DNA of 51,102 nucleotides from a virus: positions 1-51,102 of IMG/VR virus record IMGVR_UViG_3300025083_000055, one strand, 5' to 3'. Below, piece after piece: positions 479 through 24,600 of this stretch. The position numbers were made by a program, and so were the translations under genes. The notes below the pieces were generated by a model. The model worked only from the letters and a program-made list of their open reading frames with translations. It made no database searches and was not told where the DNA came from. Each line of letters begins with the position of its first letter. Position 1 is the first letter of the stretch.

Positions 479-845
479 ACGAGTATGATTACGTATTTAA
501 ATAAGTACTTAAAAGTGTGACAATAGGGTACTACTATTTATATATAACTACCTACTGTCTCAAAAAAAAATCATTACAAATATGGAGGTATAGGGTTGCT
601 TTTACCGTATTTACCCCGTATCCTATATGGGAAACAGTTTTTATTTACCCAGCCCCCCTACTCATTTAGGTTTTACGTTGTATATATGTCTGCAACCGAT
701 CAACTACATGCTATCCATCACTGGTAACTAATATATTTTCCTGTAAATGTTTTACCTTTTTTACTGTACATACTGCATCACGTATAGCATTACCCTAATC
801 ACCGTACCAAACCAGTTCAGTATATGAAGTAAGTGACTGATCGTC

Positions 846-895: not shown

Positions 896-955
896 TCGCT
901 ATAATACCTACAACTATTTTTCTACTACTAAACAATAGTACTACTTTACAAACCT

Positions 956-984
956 AATACGATTGGTATACGATAATATATATG
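956..984 (+). promoter_or_regulatory. Bipartite early promoter-like element, copy 1
   Basis: An upstream box TACGAT and a downstream box ACGATAATATATAT share a CGA exactly 11 bp apart (C960 and C971). The 9-mer CGATAATAT recurs in seven more places, always just before, or in one case over, a small rightward gene start. The downstream box contains GATAAT/TATAAT-like sequence and probably is the -10 region. It precedes the gene at 1009. Confidence 0.7.
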
Positions 985-1008
985 TAACAAACAAATACTA
1001 ATAATACT

Positions 1009-1233
1009 ATGTTAAGAACTTTACCACTTATTAAAAATGTAATCAACAAAGAAATTACAAAACTAAATGAAAAGCCAGAATATTGGGGAACTATTGAAAA
1101 TATAGAAAATGAAAATGAAATCTTCAATTACTTTCTAACTTATGAAATAGTAAATCAAGAATGGTTTGACGAAAGATTAAAGTACACAAACACTGAATTG
1201 TTAAGTGAATTACTAAACAAAATTACAAACTAA
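1009..1233 (+). CDS. Hypothetical early protein (74 aa)
   Basis: Not recognised. It is a small, charged, mainly helical protein (LIKNVINKEITKLNEKPEYW near the start) with no cysteine cluster or membrane segment. It is the first rightward gene, about 25 bp after promoter-like copy 1, and starts after an 'aataatact' leader without a Shine-Dalgarno sequence. Position suggests an early, host-directed accessory function, which is inference. Confidence 0.6.
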   Translation: MLRTLPLIKNVINKEITKLNEKPEYWGTIENIENENEIFNYFLTYEIVNQEWFDERLKYTNTELLSELLNKITN

Positions 1234-1261
1234 ACACGAAGAGTAAACGATAATATAAATG
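1233..1261 (+). promoter_or_regulatory. Bipartite early promoter-like element, copy 2
   Basis: Box CACGAA and box ACGATAATATAAAT, with the two CGA cores 11 bp apart (C1237, C1248). It lies at the stop codon of the 1009 gene and about 20 bp before the start at 1280. Confidence 0.7.
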
Positions 1262-1279
1262 TAAATAAATAAATATAAT

Positions 1280-1591
1280 ATGAGTAATAAAGAATTATTA
1301 GCGAAAGCTATCAGTAAATTAAGCACTGAAGAATTAAGTGCAATCTATCCACCAATCGAAAGAAAAAACTTTGTAGTAAGAAAGTCTTGGCTCGGTAGAA
1401 ATCAAATCATCTCTTTCACTAACAAGAAAGGTGTTAAAAGAACTTACAACCACGACGAAGTTCTAAAAGTAATGTTACCTAAGTTATCTATAATGCCTTG
1501 CTGGATTAAGAGACAATACTGGTCACAGTCAACCGATATGCCTAAAAACACTAGACATTTAATCCTAGACAGAAATCCAGTTACAGATTAA
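1280..1591 (+). CDS. Hypothetical early protein (103 aa)
   Basis: Not recognised. The start MSNKELLAKAISKLSTEELS is a charged helix. The middle (KKGVKRTYNHDEVLKVMLPK) is basic, and the C-terminal part has several Trp/Arg residues (MPCWIKRQYWSQSTDMPKN). It has no signal peptide and no zinc-binding cluster. It lies between promoter-like copies 2 and 3, so it appears to be its own transcription unit. The start is preceded by 'aataaatataat', the usual A/T leader here. Confidence 0.6.
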   Translation: MSNKELLAKAISKLSTEELSAIYPPIERKNFVVRKSWLGRNQIISFTNKKGVKRTYNHDEVLKVMLPKLSIMPCWIKRQYWSQSTDMPKNTRHLILDRNPVTD

Positions 1592-1619
1592 ATACGATCG
1601 GTAAACGATAATATAAATG
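1591..1619 (+). promoter_or_regulatory. Bipartite early promoter-like element, copy 3
   Basis: Boxes TACGATCGG and ACGATAATATAAAT with CGA cores 11 bp apart (C1595, C1606). Unlike the other copies it is followed by a leader of about 110 nt, which contains a tRNA-like minihelix (1673-1716) before the next start at 1728. Confidence 0.7.
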
Positions 1620-1672
1620 TAACAACTTTAAGTTCCACTTGTTTCTATAAGTATAAAAATGCGAACAAGTAA

Positions 1673-1716
1673 TGACATAACGGTTAATGTGAGTTCGATT
1701 CTCACTATGTCAACTA
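1673..1716 (+). ncRNA. tRNA-like minihelix (acceptor stem plus T arm only)
   Basis: TGACATA (1673-1679) pairs perfectly with TATGTCA (1706-1712). Enclosed are a 9-nt linker and a perfect T arm: GTGAG (1689-1693), consensus loop TTCGATT (1694-1700) and CTCAC (1701-1705). A discriminator-like A1713 and CTA (1714-1716) follow, close to a CCA tail. There is no D arm or anticodon arm. An ACTTGT/ACAAGT stem (1637-1642 with 1665-1670) lies immediately upstream. It sits in the leader of the gene at 1728 and could be a tRNA remnant, an RNA-processing signal or a mimic of the tRNA top half. Confidence 0.55.
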
Positions 1717-1727
1717 AAATTAATAAT

Positions 1728-1862
1728 ATGATATATACTTTAACCTGCCCTAACGGCAAAGAAATCGACATGACGCACTACATTGGTAAACAAATGGAAG
1801 GTGAAATAACTAGACAAGATGTCTTAGATAGAATAGAATTTTATAAATCAACAAATAAATAA
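1728..1862 (+). CDS. Hypothetical early protein (44 aa)
   Basis: Not recognised. The reading frame is open back to 1659, but I chose the ATG at 1728 because the longer version would translate through the tRNA-like minihelix and because 'aattaataat' before 1728 matches the leader of neighbouring genes. The protein runs MIYTLTCPNGKEIDMTHYIG and then a helical, charged C-terminus. No motif allows a function. It is followed one base later by the small membrane protein gene at 1864. Confidence 0.5.
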   Translation: MIYTLTCPNGKEIDMTHYIGKQMEGEITRQDVLDRIEFYKSTNK

Positions 1863-1863
1863 T

Positions 1864-2013
1864 ATGAGAAAATTTCACCATCATCCAGTAATCAATATAG
1901 TAATAGGCGTGATCGCTTATGCTCAAGTAACTCTAGTAATCCTTGGTTCAATATCATTAATAATAAATATGATACAAAACGGTGCTCCAACAAGCTTCGG
2001 AATCTATGGGTAA
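1864..2013 (+). CDS. Small membrane protein (49 aa)
   Basis: The 49-residue product begins MRKFHHHPVINIVIGVIAYA and has one strongly hydrophobic stretch of about 30 residues (roughly 9-38), followed by a short polar tail ending SFGIYG. A single transmembrane helix with a basic/His-rich N-terminus is the only supported prediction. It starts one base after the previous stop, so it is co-expressed with the 44-aa gene. Small early phage membrane proteins can alter host envelope functions, but nothing here shows a specific role. Confidence 0.5.
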   Translation: MRKFHHHPVINIVIGVIAYAQVTLVILGSISLIINMIQNGAPTSFGIYG

Positions 2014-2022
2014 CACAAAACA

Positions 2023-2051
2023 AATACGAATAATTAACGATAATATAATAA
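2023..2051 (+). promoter_or_regulatory. Bipartite early promoter-like element, copy 4
   Basis: Boxes TACGAATAA and ACGATAATATAATA with CGA cores 11 bp apart (C2027, C2038). The downstream box ends only about 12 bp before the start at 2064, implying a very short leader. Confidence 0.7.
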
Positions 2052-2063
2052 ATAAATAATACT

Positions 2064-2183
2064 ATGGCTCACATGAATACATATCTGCTTAAAATAAGCT
2101 ACAGAAAATACGGTAAGTGCTACAGCAAACTTACTTCAGAAGAAAAATCAACCGTTTTAGACATATACTATGACTTCTACTAA
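2064..2183 (+). CDS. Hypothetical early protein (39 aa)
   Basis: Not recognised. The 39-aa product (MAHMNTYLLKISYRKYGKCY and a charged helical tail) is rich in Tyr and Lys. Support comes from its position: it starts about 12 bp after promoter-like copy 4, has the usual 'aataaataatact' leader, and overlaps the next gene (start 2170) by 14 bp, as translationally coupled phage genes often do. It is short enough that chance cannot be excluded. Confidence 0.45.
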   Translation: MAHMNTYLLKISYRKYGKCYSKLTSEEKSTVLDIYYDFY

Positions 2184-2382
2184 GTTCAACGACTATCCTC
2201 AAGACCAAATCGACGCTAAATTAAAGCAAGTCGAAGCGTTCGAAGCAAAGTACGGTACTAACAATACAGTAAGTAAAGCTTGGCGTAAATGGTGTACCGA
2301 TCACGAATATCGCAGACGAGAGTGGCAATTCAGACAAAGTGTCGCTGCCAGTATACAACCAAATGTCGATTATACAAAGTAA
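2170..2382 (+). CDS. Hypothetical early protein (70 aa)
   Basis: Not recognised. It is a charged, helical, Lys/Arg/Gln-rich protein with several Trp residues (KAWRKWCTDHEYRRREWQFR in the middle). It has no membrane segment and no zinc-binding pattern; a single Cys is present. It overlaps the end of the 39-aa gene and ends at promoter-like copy 5. A nucleic-acid or host-protein binding role would fit the basic aromatic centre but is not demonstrated. Confidence 0.6.
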   Translation: MTSTKFNDYPQDQIDAKLKQVEAFEAKYGTNNTVSKAWRKWCTDHEYRRREWQFRQSVAASIQPNVDYTK

Positions 2383-2410
2383 ATACGAATAACTAACGAT
2401 AATATAATAA
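2382..2410 (+). promoter_or_regulatory. Bipartite early promoter-like element, copy 5
   Basis: Boxes TACGAATAA and ACGATAATATAATA with CGA cores 11 bp apart (C2386, C2397), almost identical to copy 4. The next start codon (2418) is only about 7 bp beyond the downstream box, so the transcript would be nearly leaderless. Confidence 0.7.
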
Positions 2411-2417
2411 ACAATAT

Positions 2418-2600
2418 ATGAATAAACTTAAAAAACTTCACGAAAAAAAATTAAAACTAAACGATATTACCTACAAACCATATAATCTTGGTAATCTACC
2501 ACCAACATTTGCATTCAAATACAATGACAAAGACGGTAGCGATCAAATCGGTATATCTGAATGGTTTAACTACAAAGGTTTAACATATATAAAAGCGTAA
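2418..2600 (+). CDS. Hypothetical early protein (60 aa)
   Basis: Not recognised. It has a Lys-rich helical N-terminus (MNKLKKLHEKKLKLNDITYK) and a beta-like, aromatic C-terminal half containing YNDKDGSDQIGISEWFNYKG. It has no cysteines and no membrane segment. It lies directly behind promoter-like copy 5 and two bases before the 2603 gene, with which it is presumably co-transcribed. Confidence 0.6.
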   Translation: MNKLKKLHEKKLKLNDITYKPYNLGNLPPTFAFKYNDKDGSDQIGISEWFNYKGLTYIKA

Positions 2601-2602
2601 CT

Positions 2603-2800
2603 ATGAGTAAAATGAAAGAAATCGACGAGGTAGCACAAGGTATTGCTGACGTCACTAAAGAATTAATGTATGACAGTATTCACTGGCAAATAGCAGAGTT
2701 TCACGTTGAAGGTGATTCTTATAACGAACTACATGCACATGTAATGTATTTAGCGATTAAAAAAATGTATGAAGAAATCGAAAAAGAAACGAAAGTTTAG
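2603..2800 (+). CDS. Hypothetical early protein (65 aa)
   Basis: Not recognised. It is an acidic helical protein (KMKEIDEVAQGIADVTKELM, then IHWQIAEFHVEGDSYNELHA and an acidic Glu/Lys tail). It is soluble, with no cysteine. Its last 32 bases overlap a possible 43-aa gene in another frame that starts at 2769. The start two bases after the previous stop suggests translational coupling. Confidence 0.55.
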   Translation: MSKMKEIDEVAQGIADVTKELMYDSIHWQIAEFHVEGDSYNELHAHVMYLAIKKMYEEIEKETKV

Positions 2801-2900
2801 TCATCACAAGATTAAACTAATGGAAATCGAGGCGATAGAGCGAGAGTATTGGACTAGATATAATTCCGAGATACCAAAGTGGCAACAAGATATGTATTAA
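2769..2900 (+). CDS. Possible overlapping small basic protein (43 aa)
   Basis: An ATG inside the end of the 2603 gene opens a frame giving MKKSKKKRKFSHHKIKLMEI, then a helix rich in Glu, Trp and Tyr ending WQQDMY. The extremely basic N-terminus followed by an acidic helix resembles many small phage DNA- or protein-binding proteins. An internal ATG at 2820 could give a 26-aa version. Without this gene about 150 bp would be empty in an otherwise tightly packed region. The evidence is moderate at best. Confidence 0.4.
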   Translation: MKKSKKKRKFSHHKIKLMEIEAIEREYWTRYNSEIPKWQQDMY

Positions 2901-2910
2901 ATACAAAACA

Positions 2911-2939
2911 AATACGAATACATATCGATAATATAAATG
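2911..2939 (+). promoter_or_regulatory. Bipartite early promoter-like element, copy 6
   Basis: Boxes TACGAATAC and TCGATAATATAAAT with CGA cores 11 bp apart (C2915, C2926). It precedes the zinc-ribbon gene (start 2959) and probably also drives the structured noncoding stretch and tRNA gene downstream. Confidence 0.7.
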
Positions 2940-2958
2940 TAATAATAAAATAAGTAAT

Positions 2959-3147
2959 ATGTATTGTAAATGCGGCGAAAAAGTACACCCAATAAGACTA
3001 GGTTATGGATATAAAACTTGTGTTCCTTGTAGCACAACCGAAAGCCACAGTTATGTACCAATCATCGCTAACAAGCAAGTACTTGAAATACAAATAGTTA
3101 GCCAAGAAGTTAGCGCATCTGTGCACAGAGCTTGGCGACGCAAGTAG
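2959..3147 (+). CDS. Small zinc-ribbon protein (62 aa)
   Basis: The N-terminal half has a CxC knuckle (MYCKCGEKVHP, Cys3 and Cys5) and a CxxC knuckle (YKTCVPCSTTE, around residues 21-24), forming a probable zinc ribbon. The C-terminal half is beta-like and ends with a basic helix (ASVHRAWRRK). I recognise the 'CKCG..HP.R...GYKTC..CST' arrangement from small proteins in marine phages. No activity is known to me. Zinc ribbons of this size usually bind nucleic acid or protein. Its stop codon lies within the first stem of the structured noncoding stretch. Confidence 0.65.
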   Translation: MYCKCGEKVHPIRLGYGYKTCVPCSTTESHSYVPIIANKQVLEIQIVSQEVSASVHRAWRRK

Positions 3148-3299
3148 CTAGACGAGTAAGTTAATTAGGTCGGACGGGTGAGGGATCGTTATGAACTCCG
3201 CGAGACACATAACTGAATTGCTAGCTACTATTGGGAGTGATAAGGTAAGCTAAGAAATAGGAGACGATATATGTATGTGGTGTCGAAGATTTGATCACT
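3143..3299 (+). other. Structured noncoding stretch with nested stem-loops
   Basis: No coding sequence is supported here. A 9-bp perfect stem (3143-3151 with 3221-3229; core GTAGCTAG/CTAGCTAC) encloses 69 nt, which contain an inner 6-bp stem GTTATG/CATAAC (3188-3193 with 3208-3213). A second closed unit follows, AGTGAT/ATCACT (3236-3241 with 3294-3299), then the palindrome GTACGTAC (3301-3308). The closed units are 87 and 64 nt, roughly tRNA-sized, and run straight into tRNA-like and tRNA elements. Neither has a T-loop consensus, so I do not call them tRNAs. Confidence 0.4.
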
Positions 3300-3308
3300 G
3301 GTACGTAC

Positions 3309-3373
3309 GGAAGTGTATTACATATTACGTCACACTAACTTAAACGGCGGTTCGATTCCGCCCACTTCCACTA
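3309..3373 (+). ncRNA. tRNA-like element lacking a recognisable D arm
   Basis: A perfect 7-bp acceptor stem, GGAAGTG (3309-3315) with CACTTCC (3363-3369), encloses a perfect T arm: GGCGG (3346-3350), loop TTCGATT (3351-3357), CCGCC (3358-3362). A discriminator-like A3370 and CTA follow. Only 30 nt separate acceptor and T arm, too short for D plus anticodon arms. The best anticodon-arm candidate (3326-3342) has a mismatch and no U33. Either a decayed or D-armless tRNA or a dedicated tRNA mimic. It shares the 'A-CTA' tail with the minihelix at 1673. Confidence 0.55.
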
Positions 3374-3375
3374 AC

Positions 3376-3461
3376 AGAGGGGTGGCAGATATGCAGAGAT
3401 ATACTTGTCCAACAAACAACGGCGGGTTTACGTAAACGAAGTACTTCGTGGGCACACCTCT
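3376..3461 (+). other. Hairpin-closed noncoding unit with two overlapping palindromes
   Basis: AGAGGGGTG (3376-3384) pairs with CACACCTCT (3453-3461) with one mismatch, closing an 86-nt unit between the tRNA-like element and the tRNA. Inside are two perfect palindromes sharing two bases, GTTTACGTAAAC (3426-3437) and ACGAAGTACTTCGT (3436-3449), plus a TTGT/ACAA stem with a 7-nt loop. The size resembles a class II tRNA, but there is no TTCGA T-loop. It could be an RNA structure or a protein-binding DNA site. Confidence 0.4.
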
Positions 3462-3471
3462 CTTAATATAT

Positions 3472-3547
3472 TGCGCGGTGGAGAAGATGGTTATCTCGCG
3501 AGTCTCATAAACTCGAGGTCGAAGGTTCGAATCCTTCCTGCGCACCA
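3472..3547 (+). tRNA. tRNA-Met (anticodon CAT), CCA encoded
   Basis: The cloverleaf is clear. D stem GAGA/TCTC with a GG-containing loop; anticodon stem CGAGT/ACTCG with loop CTCATAA (T33, anticodon CAT at 34-36, A37); 5-nt variable loop; T stem GAAGG/CCTTC with loop TTCGAAT; and CCA (3545-3547). The acceptor pairs GCGCGG with CTGCGC (one G-T). If CCA is the mature end, A3544 is the discriminator and the stem has only 6 bp; pairing T3472 with A3544 gives 7 bp but no discriminator. The anticodon stem lacks the three G-C pairs of initiators, so elongator Met or lysidine-modified Ile is more likely. Confidence 0.85.
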
Positions 3548-3559
3548 AAATTAAATAAT

Positions 3560-3820
3560 ATGAGTGATAAAAAATGTAATGGGTGGTCAAATTATGCCAC
3601 TTGGAAAATTAATAGTGAAATAGTATCAGACGGTGATTGGGAATTCCCAGTAACTTATGACTTTATTGAGGAGTATGTAGAGCATGTCGTATTCGATCAT
3701 TGCGGTGACATGGGTCTTATGGAAAGTTACGCAAGATCTTTCATTGCTCAAGTTGATTTTAGAGAATTAGCAGAGCATATAAATAAAGATTTAGAAATAC
3801 AACAACAATACGACAAGTAA
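3560..3820 (+). CDS. Early protein (86 aa), 'GWxNYATW' family (DUF7249-like)
   Basis: The N-terminal KKCNGWSNYATWKINSEIV matches a pattern I recognise in a widespread small phage protein family of unknown function (GWTNYxTW followed by acidic helices). The rest is acidic and helical, with conserved-looking Tyr, Asp and His residues. It starts 12 bp after the tRNA CCA end, so tRNA processing would generate its mRNA 5' end. It ends inside promoter-like copy 7. The family name is from memory. Confidence 0.6.
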   Translation: MSDKKCNGWSNYATWKINSEIVSDGDWEFPVTYDFIEEYVEHVVFDHCGDMGLMESYARSFIAQVDFRELAEHINKDLEIQQQYDK

Positions 3821-3835
3821 ACGATAATATAATAA
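3807..3835 (+). promoter_or_regulatory. Bipartite early promoter-like element, copy 7
   Basis: Boxes TACGACAAG and ACGATAATATAATA with CGA cores 11 bp apart (C3811, C3822). The upstream box lies inside the last codons of the 3560 gene; the next start (3845) is about 10 bp beyond the downstream box. Confidence 0.7.
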
Positions 3836-3844
3836 ATTAATAAT

Positions 3845-4069
3845 ATGACTATATACGAAAACCTTAAACCAGAGTTACAATCAGAACTCGACTCATCAAG
3901 CGTGAAGTACAGTACCGCTATGAGATTAAAGTATGTTTTACTTTCTAAATCATACTGGTCAGACTTAACAGTTGACAACGTAAAAGATTTAATAACATAC
4001 ACCGGTCAATCTGGCGTACAAGTATCCGCATTCGGTTTTATGTACGGTGATTCATTCTTAAAATCATGA
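3845..4069 (+). CDS. Hypothetical early protein (74 aa)
   Basis: Not recognised. It begins MTIYENLKPELQSELDSSSV, helical and charged, and continues with a helix-turn-like middle and an aromatic C-terminus (SAFGFMYGDSFLKS). It has no cysteine and no membrane segment. It directly follows promoter-like copy 7 and overlaps the next gene by four bases (ATGA), so the 3845, 4066 and 4278 genes look like one translationally coupled operon. Confidence 0.6.
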   Translation: MTIYENLKPELQSELDSSSVKYSTAMRLKYVLLSKSYWSDLTVDNVKDLITYTGQSGVQVSAFGFMYGDSFLKS

Positions 4070-4281
4070 GCGACTCTGTAACTAAATGGCACGAACTAAA
4101 CGAAGAAGGTTGGTGGACTAAAACACCCAATGTTCGTGTCAAAATCGACGAAAAAATAGCATTAGAATTAGCTGATGAAAAACTAAAAGAAATCAAATGG
4201 CTAATAGAAGAATACCATTACAATATGGATGCCACTGATCTTGTACATAAAATAAACGAAGTAATAAATAAAATAAAATGA
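4066..4281 (+). CDS. Hypothetical early protein (71 aa)
   Basis: Not recognised. The N-terminus is aromatic (KWHELNEEGWWTKTPNVRVK) and the remainder is a long amphipathic helix ending in an Asn/Lys-rich tail. It is a soluble, mildly acidic protein. ATGA overlaps join it to both neighbours. Confidence 0.6.
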   Translation: MSDSVTKWHELNEEGWWTKTPNVRVKIDEKIALELADEKLKEIKWLIEEYHYNMDATDLVHKINEVINKIK

Positions 4282-4718
4282 GTAAAAAAATAACAGATGA
4301 ACTTATCGAAGAAAAAATGATAAGCTATGGCTTCGGCGAAGTTGAATCACACGACGAAGAACATATTAGAAAAATAGTACTTGACCATTACGAAACTGAA
4401 TTAACAGATCAGTGGCGTGAAAATTGTGACTATTATATATACGAAGAATCGACTGCTGACGGCTACAGCGTTTATATAACAACTCATGACACCAGAAACA
4501 TTTGTGTAAATGAAAATGTTAATTACTACGAAAGCGAATTGAGCGGACACCTTCAAGATGCTATACGTGATGGCGGTGTAATATACGTTGACGACTTATA
4601 TCAAGACTTTATTGATGATGCAGTTCAAGAATTATATATATATTTATGTGATCGCCACCACGAGCAAGCGCTTGACGAATTACAAGACGAAGGTTACAAA
4701 CTTGATACGGATGAATAA
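4278..4718 (+). CDS. Acidic hypothetical early protein (146 aa)
   Basis: Not recognised. It is strongly acidic, with dense Asp/Glu throughout and Tyr-rich stretches such as YYIYEESTADGYSVYITTHD in the middle. Such negative charge in a small early phage protein can reflect DNA mimicry, as in known anti-restriction proteins, but no specific family is visible and the suggestion is inference. Its 3' end contains promoter-like copy 8, so the next gene can be expressed separately. Confidence 0.6.
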   Translation: MSKKITDELIEEKMISYGFGEVESHDEEHIRKIVLDHYETELTDQWRENCDYYIYEESTADGYSVYITTHDTRNICVNENVNYYESELSGHLQDAIRDGGVIYVDDLYQDFIDDAVQELYIYLCDRHHEQALDELQDEGYKLDTDE

Positions 4719-4732
4719 CGATAATATGAATG
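4704..4732 (+). promoter_or_regulatory. Bipartite early promoter-like element, copy 8
   Basis: Boxes TACGGATGA and ACGATAATATGAAT with cores 11 bp apart (C4708, C4719). It is embedded in the end of the 4278 gene, and the ATG at 4726 lies within the downstream box. Transcription from here would be leaderless for that ATG or would miss it. Keeping the motif inside coding sequence argues that it is functional. Confidence 0.6.
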
Positions 4733-4983
4733 AACAAGAAATGAATTATATCGCAGATAGAATAGCCTCTAGACTCATCGCATTTATGGAAAATCAAGCT
4801 GTAAATGTTTATAGCAGTTCCACATTCGACGGTCCTGTTGACGAAGAGCAGCAATTATTAGCTGACCTAGCGAAAGCTATGACTGAACTAGACTATAACT
4901 TGCAACAAGAAGACTATTCTAAATGCGATAAATTAAAAAAGAAAATAATAAAAATAGAAAACCAATTAAATAAATTTAAATAA
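4726..4983 (+). CDS. Hypothetical early protein (85 aa)
   Basis: Not recognised. The frame is open further upstream, but that part is out of frame with the real 4278 gene and composed of low-complexity residues. The ATG at 4726 (or 4711) gives a sensible helical protein, MNEQEMNYIADRIASRLIAF onward, with a Lys-rich coiled-coil-like C-terminus. It ends two bases before the ligase start. Confidence 0.55.
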   Translation: MNEQEMNYIADRIASRLIAFMENQAVNVYSSSTFDGPVDEEQQLLADLAKAMTELDYNLQQEDYSKCDKLKKKIIKIENQLNKFK

Positions 4984-6649: not shown

Positions 6650-7270
6650 ATGTCACAGTACGAAAGAAATAAAGATTATCTCAACAGGCATAGGGTAATA
6701 TACAGGCGTAATCCGATCAGCGATAAACCCACAGAGCAATTTGCATGGGGTGACTTCTACGCTGACGGTACTCACGAATGTTATAACTTGTTTGCCTCAA
6801 GAGCAAAGATAACTACATATAGATCTTTAAAGTGGCACTTGTATGTATTATGGTACTTAAATCCCCAAATGGATGCAGATGCTTTTACAGCATTAACACG
6901 ATACGTTTGCGATAATAAAAATGGATTTGTTACTTTTAAAGTATCAGAACAATTAATGCAGAGCATGGTATATGATGTATCAATGCAAGATCTAGAAAAA
7001 CCACCACCAAATAAATTGCGTAAGGTTATATTCAAAGATCATTGCGGTTTAGATATGAGACAAAAGCTATCTATAGTAGGTCAAATGGTTGGTAGACAAA
7101 AATTATCAGCCGCTGAAATATATGATAGTATGCTTATATTGAATGATAACAAACAAAAAATTAATATATCAAAGATAAGTATAATGTTAGGTTGTTCAAC
7201 ACGTACAGTGCATAGAAATATGACAAATGAATTAAGACGAGAAAAAGAACTATTAAACCAGCAATTATAA
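6650..7270 (+). CDS. HTH-containing regulatory or replication protein (206 aa)
   Basis: The first 120 residues are mixed and aromatic with no motif I recognise. The C-terminal 40 residues (from about 165) form a helix-turn-helix: KINISKISIMLGCSTRTVHR, with the turn at LGCS and a recognition helix TRTVHRNM, followed by a charged helix. DNA binding is therefore likely. It lies immediately upstream of the phage sigma factor (6-bp gap), and the pair would make sense as the switch from early to later gene expression. A replication-initiator role is the main alternative. Confidence 0.6.
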   Translation: MSQYERNKDYLNRHRVIYRRNPISDKPTEQFAWGDFYADGTHECYNLFASRAKITTYRSLKWHLYVLWYLNPQMDADAFTALTRYVCDNKNGFVTFKVSEQLMQSMVYDVSMQDLEKPPPNKLRKVIFKDHCGLDMRQKLSIVGQMVGRQKLSAAEIYDSMLILNDNKQKINISKISIMLGCSTRTVHRNMTNELRREKELLNQQL

Positions 7271-7276
7271 TGAGTA

Positions 7277-8029
7277 ATGAAAAAATATAATATACAGAAT
7301 TATATCAGGTATAAAGAAGATGTCAAGTCTTCTATGCCTGATGAAGATATTGGCTACAGTGAATTATCAAGAGATAAACTTATAATTAGATTTCTACCGT
7401 TAGTAGAAAATTTAGCTCGTAAGTTTTCAACAACACAGCAAGCATCAGGGGTTTTAAGTATCAATGATCTACTGCAAGAAGGCGGCGCAGGATTAACCAA
7501 AGCTGTAGACAGATTAGACTGGGATGTTTTAAACGAATCAGAGGACATTGAAAAAACATTAAAGTCATTTCTAAGTAAAAGAATTAAAGGAGCAATTAGA
7601 AGATCAATAGATATTAACAGAGGCGACATTAAAATACCAGAACATAAGTTAAATGAAATACGCAAAAATCCGAAAGATGATAAGATGGTAGCTTTGTTTT
7701 TCAATAGCATGTTTTCAAGTTATGATATAACACCAGCTGATGAAGATAACTTTGCTTATCAATTACCTGATAAGTCTGAACCATATAATATAGCTTTGCT
7801 AAATACTTATTTACTTAGTTTAATGCAAGAACATTTAACATCAAAACAATATGACGTAGTTAGATTATTTTATGGTTTAGATTGCAATAAGCACTCTGCA
7901 AAAGAAATAGCAGACTATATTGGTCTCAAAGTACCGACTGCAACCGTTATAGTTTCACAGATTAAAAAAGAAGCAATCGACCATCTAATCGCTAATGTCG
8001 ACAGTAACCAAGTAATTGATTATCTTTAA
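7277..8029 (+). CDS. Phage-encoded sigma-70 family RNA polymerase sigma factor
   Basis: Two sigma domains are visible. Region 2 spans about 33-110, with FLPLVENLARKF, the core-binding SINDLLQEGGAGLTKAVDRL and a basic helix SKRIKGAIRRS. Region 4 spans about 185-238, with HLTSKQYDVVRLFYGLD and the HTH AKEIADYIGLKVPTATVIVS. There is no long region 1 and only a reduced region 3 between them. It should direct host RNA polymerase to phage promoters. The cognate promoter cannot be read off. Candidates are the CGATAATAT early elements, if some sigma is made early, or the AATACGTAAT elements near other gene starts. Confidence 0.85.
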   Translation: MKKYNIQNYIRYKEDVKSSMPDEDIGYSELSRDKLIIRFLPLVENLARKFSTTQQASGVLSINDLLQEGGAGLTKAVDRLDWDVLNESEDIEKTLKSFLSKRIKGAIRRSIDINRGDIKIPEHKLNEIRKNPKDDKMVALFFNSMFSSYDITPADEDNFAYQLPDKSEPYNIALLNTYLLSLMQEHLTSKQYDVVRLFYGLDCNKHSAKEIADYIGLKVPTATVIVSQIKKEAIDHLIANVDSNQVIDYL

Positions 8030-8079
8030 CTTATGAATAAAATACGTAATAATAATAATAAGAAACCAAACAAAACCTT

Positions 8080-8625
8080 ATGACCATAAACCAAAAGCTG
8101 GCCCAAATCCAGACAAAATTTAAATCGAAGAAGAGTAGATTTAATTCATTCGGCAAATACAACTTCAGATCAGCCGAAGACATCCTAGAAGCAACTAAAC
8201 CCTTTCTCTTAGAGTTAGGAGTATCAGTAAGAATTGATGAGGAACTAATTGACAATCAAGAATTTCCAATAATCAAATCAACTGCTATCATCTGCGATGG
8301 CGAAAATGCTATACGTGCTACTGCACTTGTAGGCGTTGACCTAACTCAGAAAGGTATGCAAATGCCTCAAAAGTTCGGTAGTGCATCATCTTACGGTAAA
8401 AAATATGCGCTAGGTAATTTATTTTTAATTGACGACACTGCAGATAGTGACGCAACAAACAACCACGGTAATGCACCGAGAGCTAACAAGCCGACCTTAA
8501 CATCAGACAAAGATCCAGCATTTGCTAAAGCAAAGGATTACGTTAAAGCAGGAGGTAAGATTGAAGCTATAAAAGCAAAGTATGCCTTATCTAAAGAAGT
8601 AGAGGCAAAATTGAAAACTCTATAA
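8080..8625 (+). CDS. erf: ERF-family single-strand annealing recombinase
   Basis: Hallmarks of the ERF superfamily are clear: KSRFNSFGKYNFRSAEDILE near residue 20, a beta-rich middle, and the signature FGSASSYGKKYALGNLFLID (about 105-124) followed by DDTADSDATN. It anneals complementary single strands during recombination-dependent replication and repair. The C-terminus (ending VEAKLKTL) is a typical variable tail. It is directly followed by a RecE-like exonuclease gene, the usual partner that makes the single-stranded ends. Confidence 0.85.
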   Translation: MTINQKLAQIQTKFKSKKSRFNSFGKYNFRSAEDILEATKPFLLELGVSVRIDEELIDNQEFPIIKSTAIICDGENAIRATALVGVDLTQKGMQMPQKFGSASSYGKKYALGNLFLIDDTADSDATNNHGNAPRANKPTLTSDKDPAFAKAKDYVKAGGKIEAIKAKYALSKEVEAKLKTL

Positions 8626-18314: not shown

Positions 18315-18623
18315 CTATTTTATTTTACCTTTCTTTTTTCTACACTTAGCTATATAACCTGAGGCATAAGCAGAAGGAAATACATCATACTTAGCTTTAG
18401 CTTTGTGATAACAATTATCTTTTAATTTAGCGGGTGATCCTATGTGATACCCATTATTACCTTTCTCGCCTAAACCTTGAGGTCCAATTTTTTTAGCGGG
18501 TGATGGATTTTTTTCTGGTACAGCTCCTCCGCTTCCGTCTGCGTTCATAGATATTTCCATACCTTCTGGCGCTTTAACATTGCTTCTAGCTTTTCGTACT
18601 CTAATTGTAATTGGTTCGTTCAT
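18315..18623 (-). CDS. Basic SPxK-motif protein with PSAYASG domain (102 aa)
   Basis: Residues about 37-70 carry two SPAK tags (PSPAKKIG and GSPAKLKD) in a Gly/Lys-rich linker. The C-terminus (KAKAKYDVFPSAYASGYIAK, then CRKKKGKIK) matches a small domain I recognise in phage and large-virus proteins, where 'KxRYxVWPSAYASGxLVKCRK' recurs. The function is unknown, but strong basicity suggests DNA contact. The start overlaps the giant gene's stop as TAATG. Confidence 0.65.
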   Translation of the reverse strand: MNEPITIRVRKARSNVKAPEGMEISMNADGSGGAVPEKNPSPAKKIGPQGLGEKGNNGYHIGSPAKLKDNCYHKAKAKYDVFPSAYASGYIAKCRKKKGKIK

Positions 18624-21600
18624 TATTTTATTTTTTTCAAGTAATCAATTCTTTTAGATATGGACATACCTTTAGTGTCTTTTTTAAATTTTTTGTATTG
18701 AGAATATTCTAAAGCTTTTATTAATTTTTTTTCTTCAGCTTTATTCTTTTCTCTTGTTTCTTTTGCTTTCTTTTTTCCTTCTATTTTTCTTTTGGCTTTT
18801 GCTTCAACTTTTATAAGATCCTCTTCTTCATTTTTAGCACCAACACCCCAGGTTCTCCAACCTAGCGCTAAAGCTATTCTTTGATATAAAGTATTTCTTT
18901 CGTCTAATGCTTCCGTTATACCCTCTATTTCCATTAGTGCTCTGTCTAGTGGTAAATTTATTAAAGCAGAAGATAGATTACCTATTATATTATATGTTGG
19001 GCTAATGTTTAATTTACCATTTAAAGTAACATCAAACCCTCTTTCTTTTATAACATCTTTATCAAACTTCCATGTTTGTATTGCACCGTACAATTTTCTT
19101 AATTTAGATCCAATTGGTGGCGATATATTAGCTGCCTCTATAATAGTATAAGTATGATCCGCAGTAAATCCTTTCTCTTCTTGTTCTAAAAATTTTCTAA
19201 TAGTATTTTTAGTAGTAGTTGCAACCGCTCCTGCTAAGCCAGACCCTCTTAGTATTGTGTCCACCATACTGTGTACTATCCTACCTGTTTTTTGGTTTTC
19301 TTTCTTTTTCTTATCTTCTTCAGTCTCTTCTTCATCATCAAACCCGGGTATCATAGCAAACAATGCATTTTGCAAAGCCGAGAATATAAAGTTTTGAACA
19401 GCACCGTAATATATTATTTTACTAAAATTTGTTTTGAAATCACCACGTCTATTTATAATATCAAGTCCAGCTTTTTTCATTAATCTAGTATACTGCATGG
19501 GTGTATTTTGAAAAGCCAATACTAATCTACCAAGAACACTAGCTTGCTGTTGAGACACTAAAGCTGGGTCGCCTGATTGCTGTGCTTCGTCTGATATTTT
19601 ACTAAAGTCTGCCCAGGCTTTTGTTTCAGCTTCTGTTTTAGACATTCCTTGTTTTACGTATGTGTTTATTCTATTTCTATAAAATGTTGCACCACCGGTT
19701 GCAATAGCCATACTATCTGCAATTTGTGTTGGGGTAAAACCTATTTTTAATAAGTAAGCTATTATAGCTGATGATTTATCTTTAGAATTTTTAGCTTGAC
19801 TTGCTATTTCTTGTTCTTGTATATCTGATTTTAAACCGCCACGTCTTTGTTTTAATTTATCAGAATTAAAAATTCTAACCCAATCTTTCCAGTATTGAGG
19901 TTGATTAGCAAACGCTATACCAGCCTTTAATGGATTGTTATCAGACCAATTTATAAAGTTTACTGTTGATAATAATTGTAACAAAGCTGACCTTCTGTTA
20001 AAGAACATAATAGTTCCTACAGAATTATTAACCCAATTGTTCCAAGCATTCGTTAGCCTACTTCCTCCTGACGGTCTATTGGTTCCGTTGCGCATTCTGT
20101 ACAAAGCATCTTCTAACGCTTCTCTATGTCTAGAACCGTAGATAGCCTCAATCTTATTCATATTTTCAGGGCTAAATAATATCTCTGAGTTAGCTATGAA
20201 TTCACCTAGGTATTCTTTTCTATTTACTTTTTCAGTTAACTCGTTCAAATCCCTAAGTATAGTTCCTGCTTGCCAATGTTCTGAAGGCTCAGACCATTGT
20301 TCTTGCTTAGAAGATAACAAAGCCCCATCAGCAAACGCTGACAAGTCTGAATCATTATTAATCACACTAACAAGTTTCTTTAAATCTCTTTTAGATAAGC
20401 CAGGAATATCGTAGCCAGCTTTATTCCATAAGTAAACTCTTATTGCTTGATCATAAGTATAACTTGTGTCAGGTATTAATTTATTAAGTTTCTTTCTTAC
20501 TGGTTTCATTTGCTTCAGTAAGTTGCTATACGCATTCTTCATCATTTGTCTAGAAGATTCGATAGCAGATACCCCAGCAAAATAAGGGTCCATTAATGCT
20601 TTCTCAAAAAATGCTTGATCAGCCTCTCCTTGTTTTCCTTTACCTGCAAAAGTATACTGTGTTAATCCTCTAAAGTCATCAGCTGATGAAGGAATAAACC
20701 ATCTATATTTACCTTTATTTGCGCCCCGCTTTCTTGCAACAGCATCTGAGAATTGAGCTTCAGATTTTATACCTTTATTACGCTCAATCATATCATTAAA
20801 ATTTCTATTTAATGATTTATTAAATTTGACTCTAGCTTGTTGTACTTTAGATTTAACATCCAATGCATTCAATACATCTTGCACTGCCTTAACATTTTTA
20901 TAAGCATCGTCTACAAAATAAAAATCATTATAGCCTTCAGCAAATTTATCTATCATCCAATCGGCTTTAGCAGATGGCCTGCCGTCTTGTAATCCTGTTA
21001 TGTTTTGCATTGGTATTTCTAACCCAATACCTTTTAAGAATTCGTATATAGCCGGTGCAGAAGCTTGCGGTCTAGCGGTTAAAACATATATATTTTTATT
21101 ACCGAATTTTTTTATTGCTTTTTCTAATCTTGCGGCTAATGGTCCTTTCGTTCCTTTTACAACTTTATTAAATTCACTAAAATCAAAAGTAGCGCCTTGC
21201 TCAGATAAAGTTTCATCTTTAGCTGCAAATTCAGCGGGTGTGATTTTTACAACTTTGCCATTAGGCATGGTAACTATAATTTTGCTTTTACTAAAAGCTA
21301 GTGTATCGTCAAAATCATAAACGCTTATTCCTTTTGGATTAATAGCATAATCAGGCAATCTAGCCGCGTTCATTGCTTTATCAGCTCTATTTGCAGATCT
21401 AGAATTTTTAGCAGCATAAGGTTTTAAAACATTATTGAACTCAACCCAAGCCTCCCCTTGTATATCGCCTTTATTTTCTCCACTTAAGGTCTCTATAGGG
21501 AACATATTGGGATAACCAAAAGTATTCTCATTAAAGTATCTTTTGTATTCAGGGTCATTCATTAAATCAAACGAACTATTCATTTGAGATTGGGTAAGAA

Positions 21601-24600
21601 CATTGAAGTTATTGTCCATAACCACGGGAACTATTGCTACATTATATTTATCTCTTAAAGTATCTAAATCAAAGGTTTTACCATTTTTGTAATAATTAGT
21701 TAATCTAACTATCATTTCTTTTGTAGGTATAACATGCTCATATCTTAGTCGGCCATTGTAATCACCTTTGAAGTGATATTTTACAGGAGCTGCGGCCTTT
21801 AGCACCGCTGACATATTAGATTTTAAAGATTGCATAGCCATAGCCCAATCCAACATATTGCCGTTTGTATTTACATATGATAAAAACTCGTTTAAATAAT
21901 TCCAAGCTTCTCTAGCTTGTTCTTCTCTATAGTCGCTTTCATCCCTGAATTTTTGTATTCCACCATCAGCTGATTGACTAGGTGTTTTAATTCTTTCTTT
22001 CCAATTCTTTACTTCTATTCCTTGATAAAAAACAGCTTTAATTGATGTTGATTTACCTTTTTTATAAACAACTTCAACGTCTGGAATATTATTTAAATTA
22101 TTATCTATATAATCAGGGTTTCCTGCATACGCTTGATCTCTTCCGCCGCCAATTTTACCAGATGTTACTTGATGCCCTCTACCCCATTTTAATATTTTTA
22201 TTAAACCATCGGCACCTTCTTTAGAAACTAGCTCTGAATTGAAAGCATATTCCATACCTCTTTGGTTAGAAATATTATCTGCATTTTCAAATAGCTCAGT
22301 GGCTGATCCTTCTAAACCGAAAACCTTCATTAAAGAAAAATCTTGACTCTTCAATATATCTGCTTCAGTTAAAAATTTAATAAAGTCTAGATTTTTAGTT
22401 ATATCTATTTTTTTAACAAATCTATTAATTGAATTAATACTTTCACTAGCAAATTCCTCTAATACCTTTAAGGGTATTTCGGGATAAGTGTCTTGCAGCA
22501 TGGGTAATAATCTTTTTTTAGTAAGATTAATATTTGCATCAAGTATTTTATTTATTAAAGCGTCTTTCTTAGAATTTATTATTTTAGCTTGCGCTCTATT
22601 TAGTGATTTACTAAACTTAACGTTGCCTCTTTCGGTTTGCTTAGCAACCTCAGCGACATAATTATCTAAAAGTATTGTTCCTTTTAAAGATTGATTCTGT
22701 TCAAAAGCCTTGCTTATCTCGCTATTTTCATTCTGTAGTTCAGCATTAAATATCTCTAAAGATATTTCTTCAGCCATAGCTTTAGCAAGCGATTCTTTCC
22801 TGCCTCTAATAAGTTTATTGTCAGCAACAAAATAACTTAAAAACTCTGCATCAGGCATTGACGCTACATTAGGTTTTCTTCGTGTTATTTCTGCTCCAGA
22901 TGTTCTGCCCGCGCTATCAGTGCTAACTGTTTCTCTGTCTATTTTCTGCCCTTGCCAGTTAGAAATAAATTTTCCATTAACTTGTTTTTGTACAGCGCTT
23001 GGAATTGCACCCATTAACCACGTAGTGGTCATATTCTCTAATATAGATTTTTTATTTTTAGTTAAAAATTTTTGTATGGCATTATCTTTAATACCACCCA
23101 TAGCTTTCTTTAAATCTATGTCAGCTTGTTTACCAAGATCTTTTTTAATTTCAGCAATTAAAGGTGTGATTGTTCTGTTCTTAGAAATTTTTTCATCTAA
23201 TTTAGACTTTAAGGTTCTTACAGTTCTAAGTACTTTAGAGTTAATATTAGATATAACATCACTAGATAGTATATTGCTTTTTAATAAATTTCTATATTTA
23301 GGTTTGGACTTTTGCGAAGCTGTAGAGCTTTCTGTAATTTCATTAGCAGCTTTTTCTAATTGCTCAAATTGATTACTATCAACGTTTTCTAAATATGTGC
23401 TATCTGAACGAACTGCATCAAGTATTCTTTTGGCAATACGGCCATTTATAAAGCCATATAGATCACCCCTGCCGTCCCATTTAGTAGTTTCCTGTGCTTT
23501 ATATATTCTTTCAATTACGTCGTCTCTAAGATCTTGTTTTACTTGTGGTCTTAAATTGAATCTATTCCCGATTTGGGTATCTACCATGTTAAATAACTCA
23601 CTTGCTATAGTGTTTTGAGCAGAGCCTGATTGAAAATTATCTTCTAAGCTTTTAAATTTATCTTTTGTTTTTGCTAAAGCAGCAGTTGATTTATTTTGTT
23701 TAGCTCTTTGAACAGCTTCAGGCCCAGTAAATCTTTTTATTTTTTTACCAACAACAGCACCTTCTTTTGAAGCTTTGTTTATAGCCTTGCCCAAGTTTCC
23801 TCTGCTAACACCTTTGTTGTAGTCTTTCAAAAAGTTGTATACATCCTTGCCACTATTAAATTCAATATCTTTTAAACCCGCGTTTTGCAATAACCTTCTT
23901 AATATATCCTTAAGCTTAGTGAAAACGCCATCATTATATTGTATATCACCATAGTACAATGCGTCAGCAAACAATGTTAAAACCTCTTCTGCTCTAATAC
24001 TAGATGGCTCTTTTTGATATAATCTTATTCTTTCTGCTAATTCAGGAGTTTTTATTATATCAGGATCTAAGTTATTCAATTCTGTTTGCAATGCTTGCGC
24101 TAATCCACGAACAACATTTTTTCCTTCAACATTTCCAGAATCGTTTATAGTATATAATGTCTTGAACAAGATAGCATGCAACATTTCATGCGCAGCTGTG
24201 TTTACCTCGCCGAGTTCAGCAGCTTTAGACATGTCTATTATTATGGTCTTCCCATCTTGTGAAGTGTATCCCGTAGAGTTTGCATCCTCACCAAGATTCA
24301 TTTTATTATTTTCAGCTTCTTTTTTTGCATCAGATGCATCTTTAGCTTCAATAATAGTAATTCCTAGATCACCTTTTTTATTTGCTTTTAAAACTTTTTT
24401 GGTTAAAGCATCTGTATCACTAATATTCTTTAATTGCAAATCTATCTCAGCAATTCTATTAAGCTGTTCGGTTACTAGACTTTTGTCTTTATCTTTTGTT
24501 TGTTTCTCTAATTGATTTTTTTCAATTAATAAATCTAAAGATTGTTTTTTAGATTCATTATTAAAATCTCCAGGTATTTTTGTATTGGCATTTCTTACTT

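Follow-up and report, generated by a model that had tools for sequence, protein, structure and literature searches.

In the Kuravirus-like podoviruses phiEco32 and 7-11, an early class of promoters is followed by a different class, driven by a phage sigma factor, which serves middle and late genes on both strands, and opposite the late operon lies an early/middle block that holds the sigma gene (PMC8948821). A similar arrangement is predicted for the 51,102-base stretch of viral DNA analyzed here (the window; IMG/VR virus record IMGVR_UViG_3300025083_000055), a fragment of a podovirus genome of about 66 kb. A repeated element, which we call class E, lies ahead of the small early genes, and the gene for a sigma-70 family factor is followed by promoters of another type, class M. 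However, the early promoters of phiEco32 and 7-11 are a few ordinary host sigma-70 promoters, whereas here a tripartite, phage-specific element is present in 5-13 copies and is unlike the expected host consensus, and class M differs from the tAATGTAtA and GTAAtg-(16)-aCTA motifs of those phages. The early promoters of T4, like class E, are multi-copy and conserved beyond -35 and -10, in a phage with no RNA polymerase of its own (PMC2988021), but they are excellent matches to host sigma-70 promoters, while class E does not match the host-type TTTG/TAnnTTTG. In T4 middle promoters, as in class E, a box centered near -30 replaces the -35 element ahead of a sigma-read -10 (PMC2988021), although the MotA box, (a/t)(a/t)(a/t)TGCTTtA, is not the class E block TTTACAAAC-n-AAATACGA. 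Neither a MotA nor an AsiA homologue was seen here, and no search aimed at either was made. The crAss-like phage phi14:2, a distant relative, also has an early block with the late genes opposite, but it uses a virion RNA polymerase, of which none was found here, and it has neither class E nor class M.

The terminase, portal, and muzzle-type proteins place the window near the crAss-like and the Pervagoviridae/Elemovirus phages of Flavobacteria, and the virus is distantly related to the crAss-like phages. Judging from its relatives, it very likely infects Bacteroidota bacteria. A second record, G001 (66,183 bases), aligns along the window at about 93% identity. The early and replication genes run rightward (about 1.0-17.5 kb) and the structural genes leftward. 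The relatives compared are metagenomic contigs, and promoter matrix counts refer to 88 de-duplicated related loci. We suggest, with a probability of about 0.7, that the class E repeats are the early promoters of a sigma-cascade phage, that they are of the sigma-70 type, and that they are read by the host RNA polymerase, probably helped by a further factor.

The 9-mer CGATAATAT occurs eight times in the 51 kb, always on the + strand, compared with 0.74 matches expected from dinucleotide shuffles (largest count in 100 shuffles, 3). Thus, the eight copies listed in a first-pass annotation were found again at the same positions, all on the plus strand, and the 9-mer is not scattered over both strands. 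The spacing CGA-N8-CGATAATAT is constant across all eight sites. The phasing of 11 bp between CGA cores described in that annotation is exact, but the eighth upstream core (4708) is CGG, while the seven others are CGA; similarly, the upstream box, described as TACGA-type, is CACGA at 1237. Nor is the element simply bipartite, as had been thought. Alignment of the copies in the window and its relatives revealed a third box, TTTACAAAC, 11 bp further upstream and equally conserved. The layout of class E is TTTACAAAC-n-AAATACGA-N9-GATAATAT, with a purine 12 nt past the G. Counted from the G of GATAATAT, the C's of the boxes lie at -23 and -12, with a further one at -1 in this clade. The upstream block has the sequence TTTACAAACTAAATACGA, and the iterated matrix from the window and relatives has the consensus TTTACAAAC-t-AAATACGA-N9-GATAATATAAATG.

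When both strands were scanned with this matrix, as the first-pass annotation had proposed, the 88 loci gave 506 matches on the early strand and 3 on the opposite strand, and 82 of the 88 carry class E. In the window, the scan returned the eight copies and a ninth (G at 6911), with everything else at 5 bits or less; the ninth scores 23.5 bits, compared with 16.8 for the best of 100 simulated windows, and its location is common to the near relatives L060, L061, and L068. The window has eight copies, and probably nine with this weaker element. Between the window and G001, the class E region has changed at 3 of 208 box positions, 5 of 64 spacer positions, and 286 of 3826 remaining positions, and on this sequence comparison the boxes are under purifying selection. 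GATAAT is 99-100% conserved across class E copies, while the base preceding it is C, G, A, or T depending on the phage but uniform within each phage. A wrong spacing, TAC-N10-GATAATA, which acted as an unintended negative control, gives scattered single matches on both strands, whereas the N11 spacing gives 3-11 clustered matches on one strand. The strict class E core is found in only 10 stretches in 257 Gb of sequence (84,980 bacterial and archaeal genomes). The multi-copy stretches are short contigs binned into metagenome-assembled genomes, some labelled Bacteroidota, and are apparently phage sequence; the singletons (L285-L288) were judged to be chance matches. Another candidate promoter, TGCTATACA/G, is enriched on the + strand in some relatives, yet it lies mostly inside coding sequence and was not taken to be one.

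Class E copies stand ahead of small open reading frames (ORFs), the ligase gene, and the sigma gene. In 13 loci among those listed, several of which share a contig type, a copy lies 12-15 nt before the sigma ATG. In the sister clade, sigma is absent and class E does not exceed background (0/18), and the same is true of phi14:2, elemoF, Panino, and the 50 kb of phi38:1 that were examined. Of 503 copies found with a matrix that ends at +6, 499 have a purine 12 nt past the G. Furthermore, the ATG of a real ORF falls exactly on this +12 base at 36 sites, compared with 1 and 4 sites one base to either side. We suggest that the purine and the ATG register mark the predicted transcription start. The ATG peak is the pattern that leaderless genes starting at +1 would give, which would put GATAAT at -12 to -7. 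Leaderless mRNAs are known in flavobacteria, amounting to 5.5% in Flavobacterium psychrophilum (PMC9723704).

Truly leaderless class E copies exist in the relatives, whereas the leaders from the predicted starts in the window are 8-40 nt long, A-rich, and have no obvious Shine-Dalgarno sequence. The two sites at which leaderless transcripts had been anticipated, 2418 and 4726, are no exception. The predicted start gives the former a short leader, and for the latter the likelier start codon is at 4741, with a leader of 9 nt, because the predicted start falls downstream of the ATG at 4726. Judged by the hundreds of copies in related viruses, class E is a real promoter element, and the earlier proposal that it drives tiny early genes is supported by its strand bias, its placement, and the start-site signal.

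What kind of promoter is class E? The likely host group is shared with the known Bacteroidetes primary-sigma promoters, but the boxes differ. Where the -7 box TAnnTTTG would be expected, all eight copies have GATAATAT, at -12 to -5, which agrees with it at two of the six fixed positions, and TAnnTTTG is absent from the + strand between 900 and 6900. In place of the -33 TTTG/TTG, TTTACAAAC sits at -38 to -30. Neither strand of the window is enriched in the looser motif TAHHTTTG, whereas in the sister phage MW202828 the late strand shows an enrichment of about twofold (30 vs 13.8). Nor does class E have the E. coli arrangement TTGACA-N17-TATAAT; TTTACA and GATAAT are 20 bp apart, and -12 is an invariant G. 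The first-pass annotation had set aside both the Bacteroidetes promoter and a -35/-10 pair with 17-bp spacing, and it was right on both counts. The CGT of the -10 region of extracytoplasmic function (ECF) sigma promoters is missing as well, the base at -13 being a clade-specific C, G, A, or T. The general features of sigma-70-type promoters are nevertheless present: A-11 and T-7 are conserved in the -10 hexamer, and a purine start follows about 7 nt downstream. Six classes of sigma motif are reported in F. psychrophilum, namely, three TAnnTTTG variants, sigma-54, TAnnTTGY, and a CGT-type ECF motif (PMC9723704), and class E fits none of them. By sequence, class E matches no reported flavobacterial promoter, and the likely hosts are not known to use such promoters. 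The unusual mode of recognition suspected earlier is still called for. In MW202828 (43.8-50 kb, locus L161), which has no sigma, a perfect 16-bp palindrome, GTGTCGTTAACGACAC, is found before many early genes in place of class E.

The phage sigma factor matches the primary sigma factors of the PDB by profile (E=1e-9) and by fold. The gene is present in 37 of 44 records chosen by the class E pattern, and in all 27 of those of at least 55 kb, a co-occurrence that may reflect a single ancestral event. Class M, [T/G]TAAA-N14-[C/T]GTAATTATA, lies directly after the sigma gene and before Erf in most of 71 distinct junctions, and it also heads the late operon on the opposite strand. The matrix for the late copies was trained on the divergent region only; a first late-promoter matrix had been captured by antisense primase sequence and was discarded.

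The -35 base of class M is G or T depending on the phage, and this choice follows residue 228 of the sigma factor. This residue is in the region 4.2 recognition helix and aligns with Gln-589 of E. coli, which contacts -35T (PMC8561392). Among post-sigma copies, G occurs with Glu in 28 and T with Gln in 26; among late copies, the corresponding numbers are 20 and 13. Four copies depart from this pattern by having C, and one sigma sequence does not include residue 228. Residue 228 accounts for all of the G/T variation (63/63 phages), with a normalized mutual information of 0.95, compared with 0.56 for the next column among seven proteins. On a tree built from Erf, exonuclease, primase, and the gene that precedes sigma, and thus without sigma itself, each trait switches 8 times, and 7 of 7 independent pairs are concordant (p=0.0156). 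Readout of A by Gln and of C by Glu is the expected chemistry. Because residue 228 accounts for every -35 G/T switch, the phage sigma very likely reads class M. The hallmarks of a sigma cascade of the phiEco32/SPO1 kind found here are a phage sigma-70 family gene and a second promoter class that covaries with residue 228, the latter seen in sequence only. In one locus, L138, sigma region 4 is missing or diverged in the match while class E and class M are intact, a possible natural exception or a frameshift. Beside the late class M copy of the window, at about 510-560 on the - strand, is an imperfect palindrome, GTGACAATAGG ... TTGTGTCAC, which is kept in relatives and folds as a hairpin.

The placement of class M and its pairing with sigma lead us to assign class E as the early promoter class of the cascade. 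In the proposed mechanism, each class E copy would provide a -10 element, GATAAT, at -12 to -7, with a purine start 12 nt past the G, and the upstream block, at -38 to -22, would supply two 11-bp-phased half-boxes that replace the normal -35. Class E would drive the small early genes, and sigma as well, by read-through or, in some relatives, from a copy directly upstream. This factor would then redirect the host RNA polymerase to class M, which stands ahead of the late operon and of the genes for recombination and replication. What the sequence itself shows is the element with its start site, strand, and placement, together with the pairing of sigma and class M, whereas the use of class E first, with early timing, is inferred from the layout. 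We prefer, with moderate confidence, the host RNA polymerase with a putative extra factor, from the host or the virion, on the upstream block, because class E would be needed before sigma is made and no RNA polymerase gene was found. The half-boxes TACAAA and TACGAA, which are spaced by 11 bp and stand 9 bp from the -10, would by analogy resemble class II activator sites in layout. A more specific version, in which a phage with no RNA polymerase gene has early promoters unlike those of any known host sigma, and these are read by the host polymerase with a virion-delivered specificity factor, is tentative.

Several points weigh against this assignment. Its early timing is read from the layout, and the extra factor is putative. 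A promoter read by the host should resemble the host consensus, but the agreement with TAnnTTTG is at two of six positions, and among the six sigma motifs of F. psychrophilum, none is described as resembling GATAAT (PMC9723704). Furthermore, sigma and class E co-occur, and sigma may read class E through region 2 alone. The first-pass annotation hinted at the phage sigma as the reader, and if it reads class E, alone or besides class M, the early regulon would be self-amplifying, with the first sigma carried in the virion or arising from leaky host transcription. The co-occurrence is complete, part of the clade has a class E copy immediately before the sigma gene, and in the alignment region 2.4 has Gly and Arg at the positions of E. 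coli Q437 and T440, compatible with the invariant G at -12. However, residue 228 in the -35-reading region 4.2 covaries with class M and with no class E position, and the class E upstream block is alike in phages with Gln and with Glu. No sigma column explains the variation in class E. When every variable class E position was compared with sigma and six other proteins, no covarying partner emerged, and the base before GATAAT paired with sigma residues, including residue 110, no better than with control proteins. The sigma gene is at the end of the class E region and is hence made from class E; unless some sigma is carried in the virion, class E has to work before any is present. We regard the phage sigma as a rather unlikely reader.

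Alternatively, an unrecognized virion RNA polymerase may read class E, as in phi14:2, whose early genes are transcribed by such an enzyme (as reviewed in PMC10136315). The distant crAss kinship, from muzzle, portal, and terminase matches, and the departure of class E from host promoters would fit, but we consider this improbable. Within the limits of detection, no ORF has a catalytic DxDxD in an RNA polymerase context, either among the giant proteins of the window or among the large ORFs of G001, and the part of G001 beyond the window encodes tail-fibre-type proteins. The case for a 2665-aa giant protein of virion type as the polymerase found no support; it has no PDB or polymerase Pfam match, its hhalign probability against the phi14:2 RNA polymerase is 0.3%, and a low-confidence model shows its conserved C-terminus as mostly helical. 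The absence of a polymerase is thus judged from sequence comparison and from this model. The geometry, with boxes from -38 to -7 and +1 seven nt after the -10, is also that of sigma-type promoters. A host alternative sigma acting unaided, such as one of the several ECF factors carried by flavobacteria (PMC9723704), is likewise improbable. AAC-N17-CGATAAT in this clade loosely recalls the AAC -35 and CGT -10 of ECF promoters, but the CGA is not conserved, since the base before GATAAT differs between phages, the spacer block AAATACGA is untypical, and the strict core is rare in bacterial and archaeal genomes, where the multi-copy stretches are apparently phage. Finally, rigid internal spacing might suggest protein-binding or replication sites rather than promoters. 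The strict strand bias, the position just before start codons, the conserved start-site purine, and the exactly leaderless genes in that register make this hardly credible.

The positions of the promoters and of the genes at the sigma locus are listed in Table 1.

Table 1. Predicted promoters and associated genes in the window
Feature	Position	Strand	Start site or context	Score
Class E copy 1	946..984	+	predicted +1 at 984; first ATG 1009	39.0 bits
Class E copy 2	1223..1261	+	predicted +1 at 1261; ATG 1280	40.8 bits
Class E copy 3	1581..1619	+	predicted +1 at 1619; ATG 1659	36.5 bits
Class E copy 4	2013..2051	+	predicted +1 at 2051; ATG 2064	34.6 bits
Class E copy 5	2372..2410	+	predicted +1 at 2410; ATG 2418, 8-nt leader	37.0 bits
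Class E copy 6	2901..2939	+	predicted +1 at 2939; ATG 2959	39.2 bits
Class E copy 7	3797..3835	+	predicted +1 at 3835; ATG 3845	29.2 bits
Class E copy 8 (upstream core CGG)	4694..4732	+	predicted +1 at 4732; likely ATG 4741	29.0 bits
Class E copy 9 (weaker)	6885..6923	+	366 bp upstream of sigma gene, within ORF 6650-7270	23.5 bits
Phage sigma-70 family factor	7277..8029	+	regions 2 and 4	PHROG_351 E=9e-16
Class M promoter	8025..8054	+	between sigma and Erf	40.6 bits
Erf-like annealing protein	8080..8625	+	first gene past class M	PHROG_155 E=9e-37
Class M promoter	484..513	-	late operon head (first ORF 233-478, - strand)	23.8 bits (late-trained matrix), 17.0 bits (post-sigma matrix)

Other features were also noted. 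Just downstream of class E copy 3, at 1673-1712 (+), is a tRNA-like minihelix, TGACATA ACGGTTAAT GTGAG TTCGATT CTCAC TATGTCA, which has a 7-bp acceptor-type stem and a T-arm only, without D or anticodon arm, and gives a weak beta-tmRNA match. A compact tmRNA-like RNA of 141 nt is at 3233-3373 (+), with an Rfam tmRNA match of E=1.7e-11 and 35 bits, below the gathering score of 47, and tRNA-Met (3472-3546) adjoins it. The 2665-aa protein (18623-26620, - strand) is of the ejection type, with an invariant HExxH (811-815) and a HAD-like DFDDT segment; no fold could be assigned to its conserved C-terminal region. Among the relatives, IMGVR_UViG_3300047157_000162 (129,537 bases; loci L090 and L112) has two sigma loci that differ from each other and in their class E type, and is probably two phages joined in assembly.

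These results predict a complete promoter cascade of two stages for a clade that is widespread, apparently uncultured, and related to phages of Flavobacteria. The class M code is arguably more decisive than the class E finding itself. It is a natural specificity code of one sigma residue and one base (Gln or Glu at 228, T or G at -35) that has switched independently at least seven times. Such a code is rare, and it can be tested directly. Orthogonal strong promoters for Bacteroidota would also be useful tools. These phages appear to begin infection from promoters that their likely hosts are not known to use. If a virion-delivered specificity factor does act on class E, it would parallel, without a polymerase, the strategy of the crAss virion RNA polymerase.

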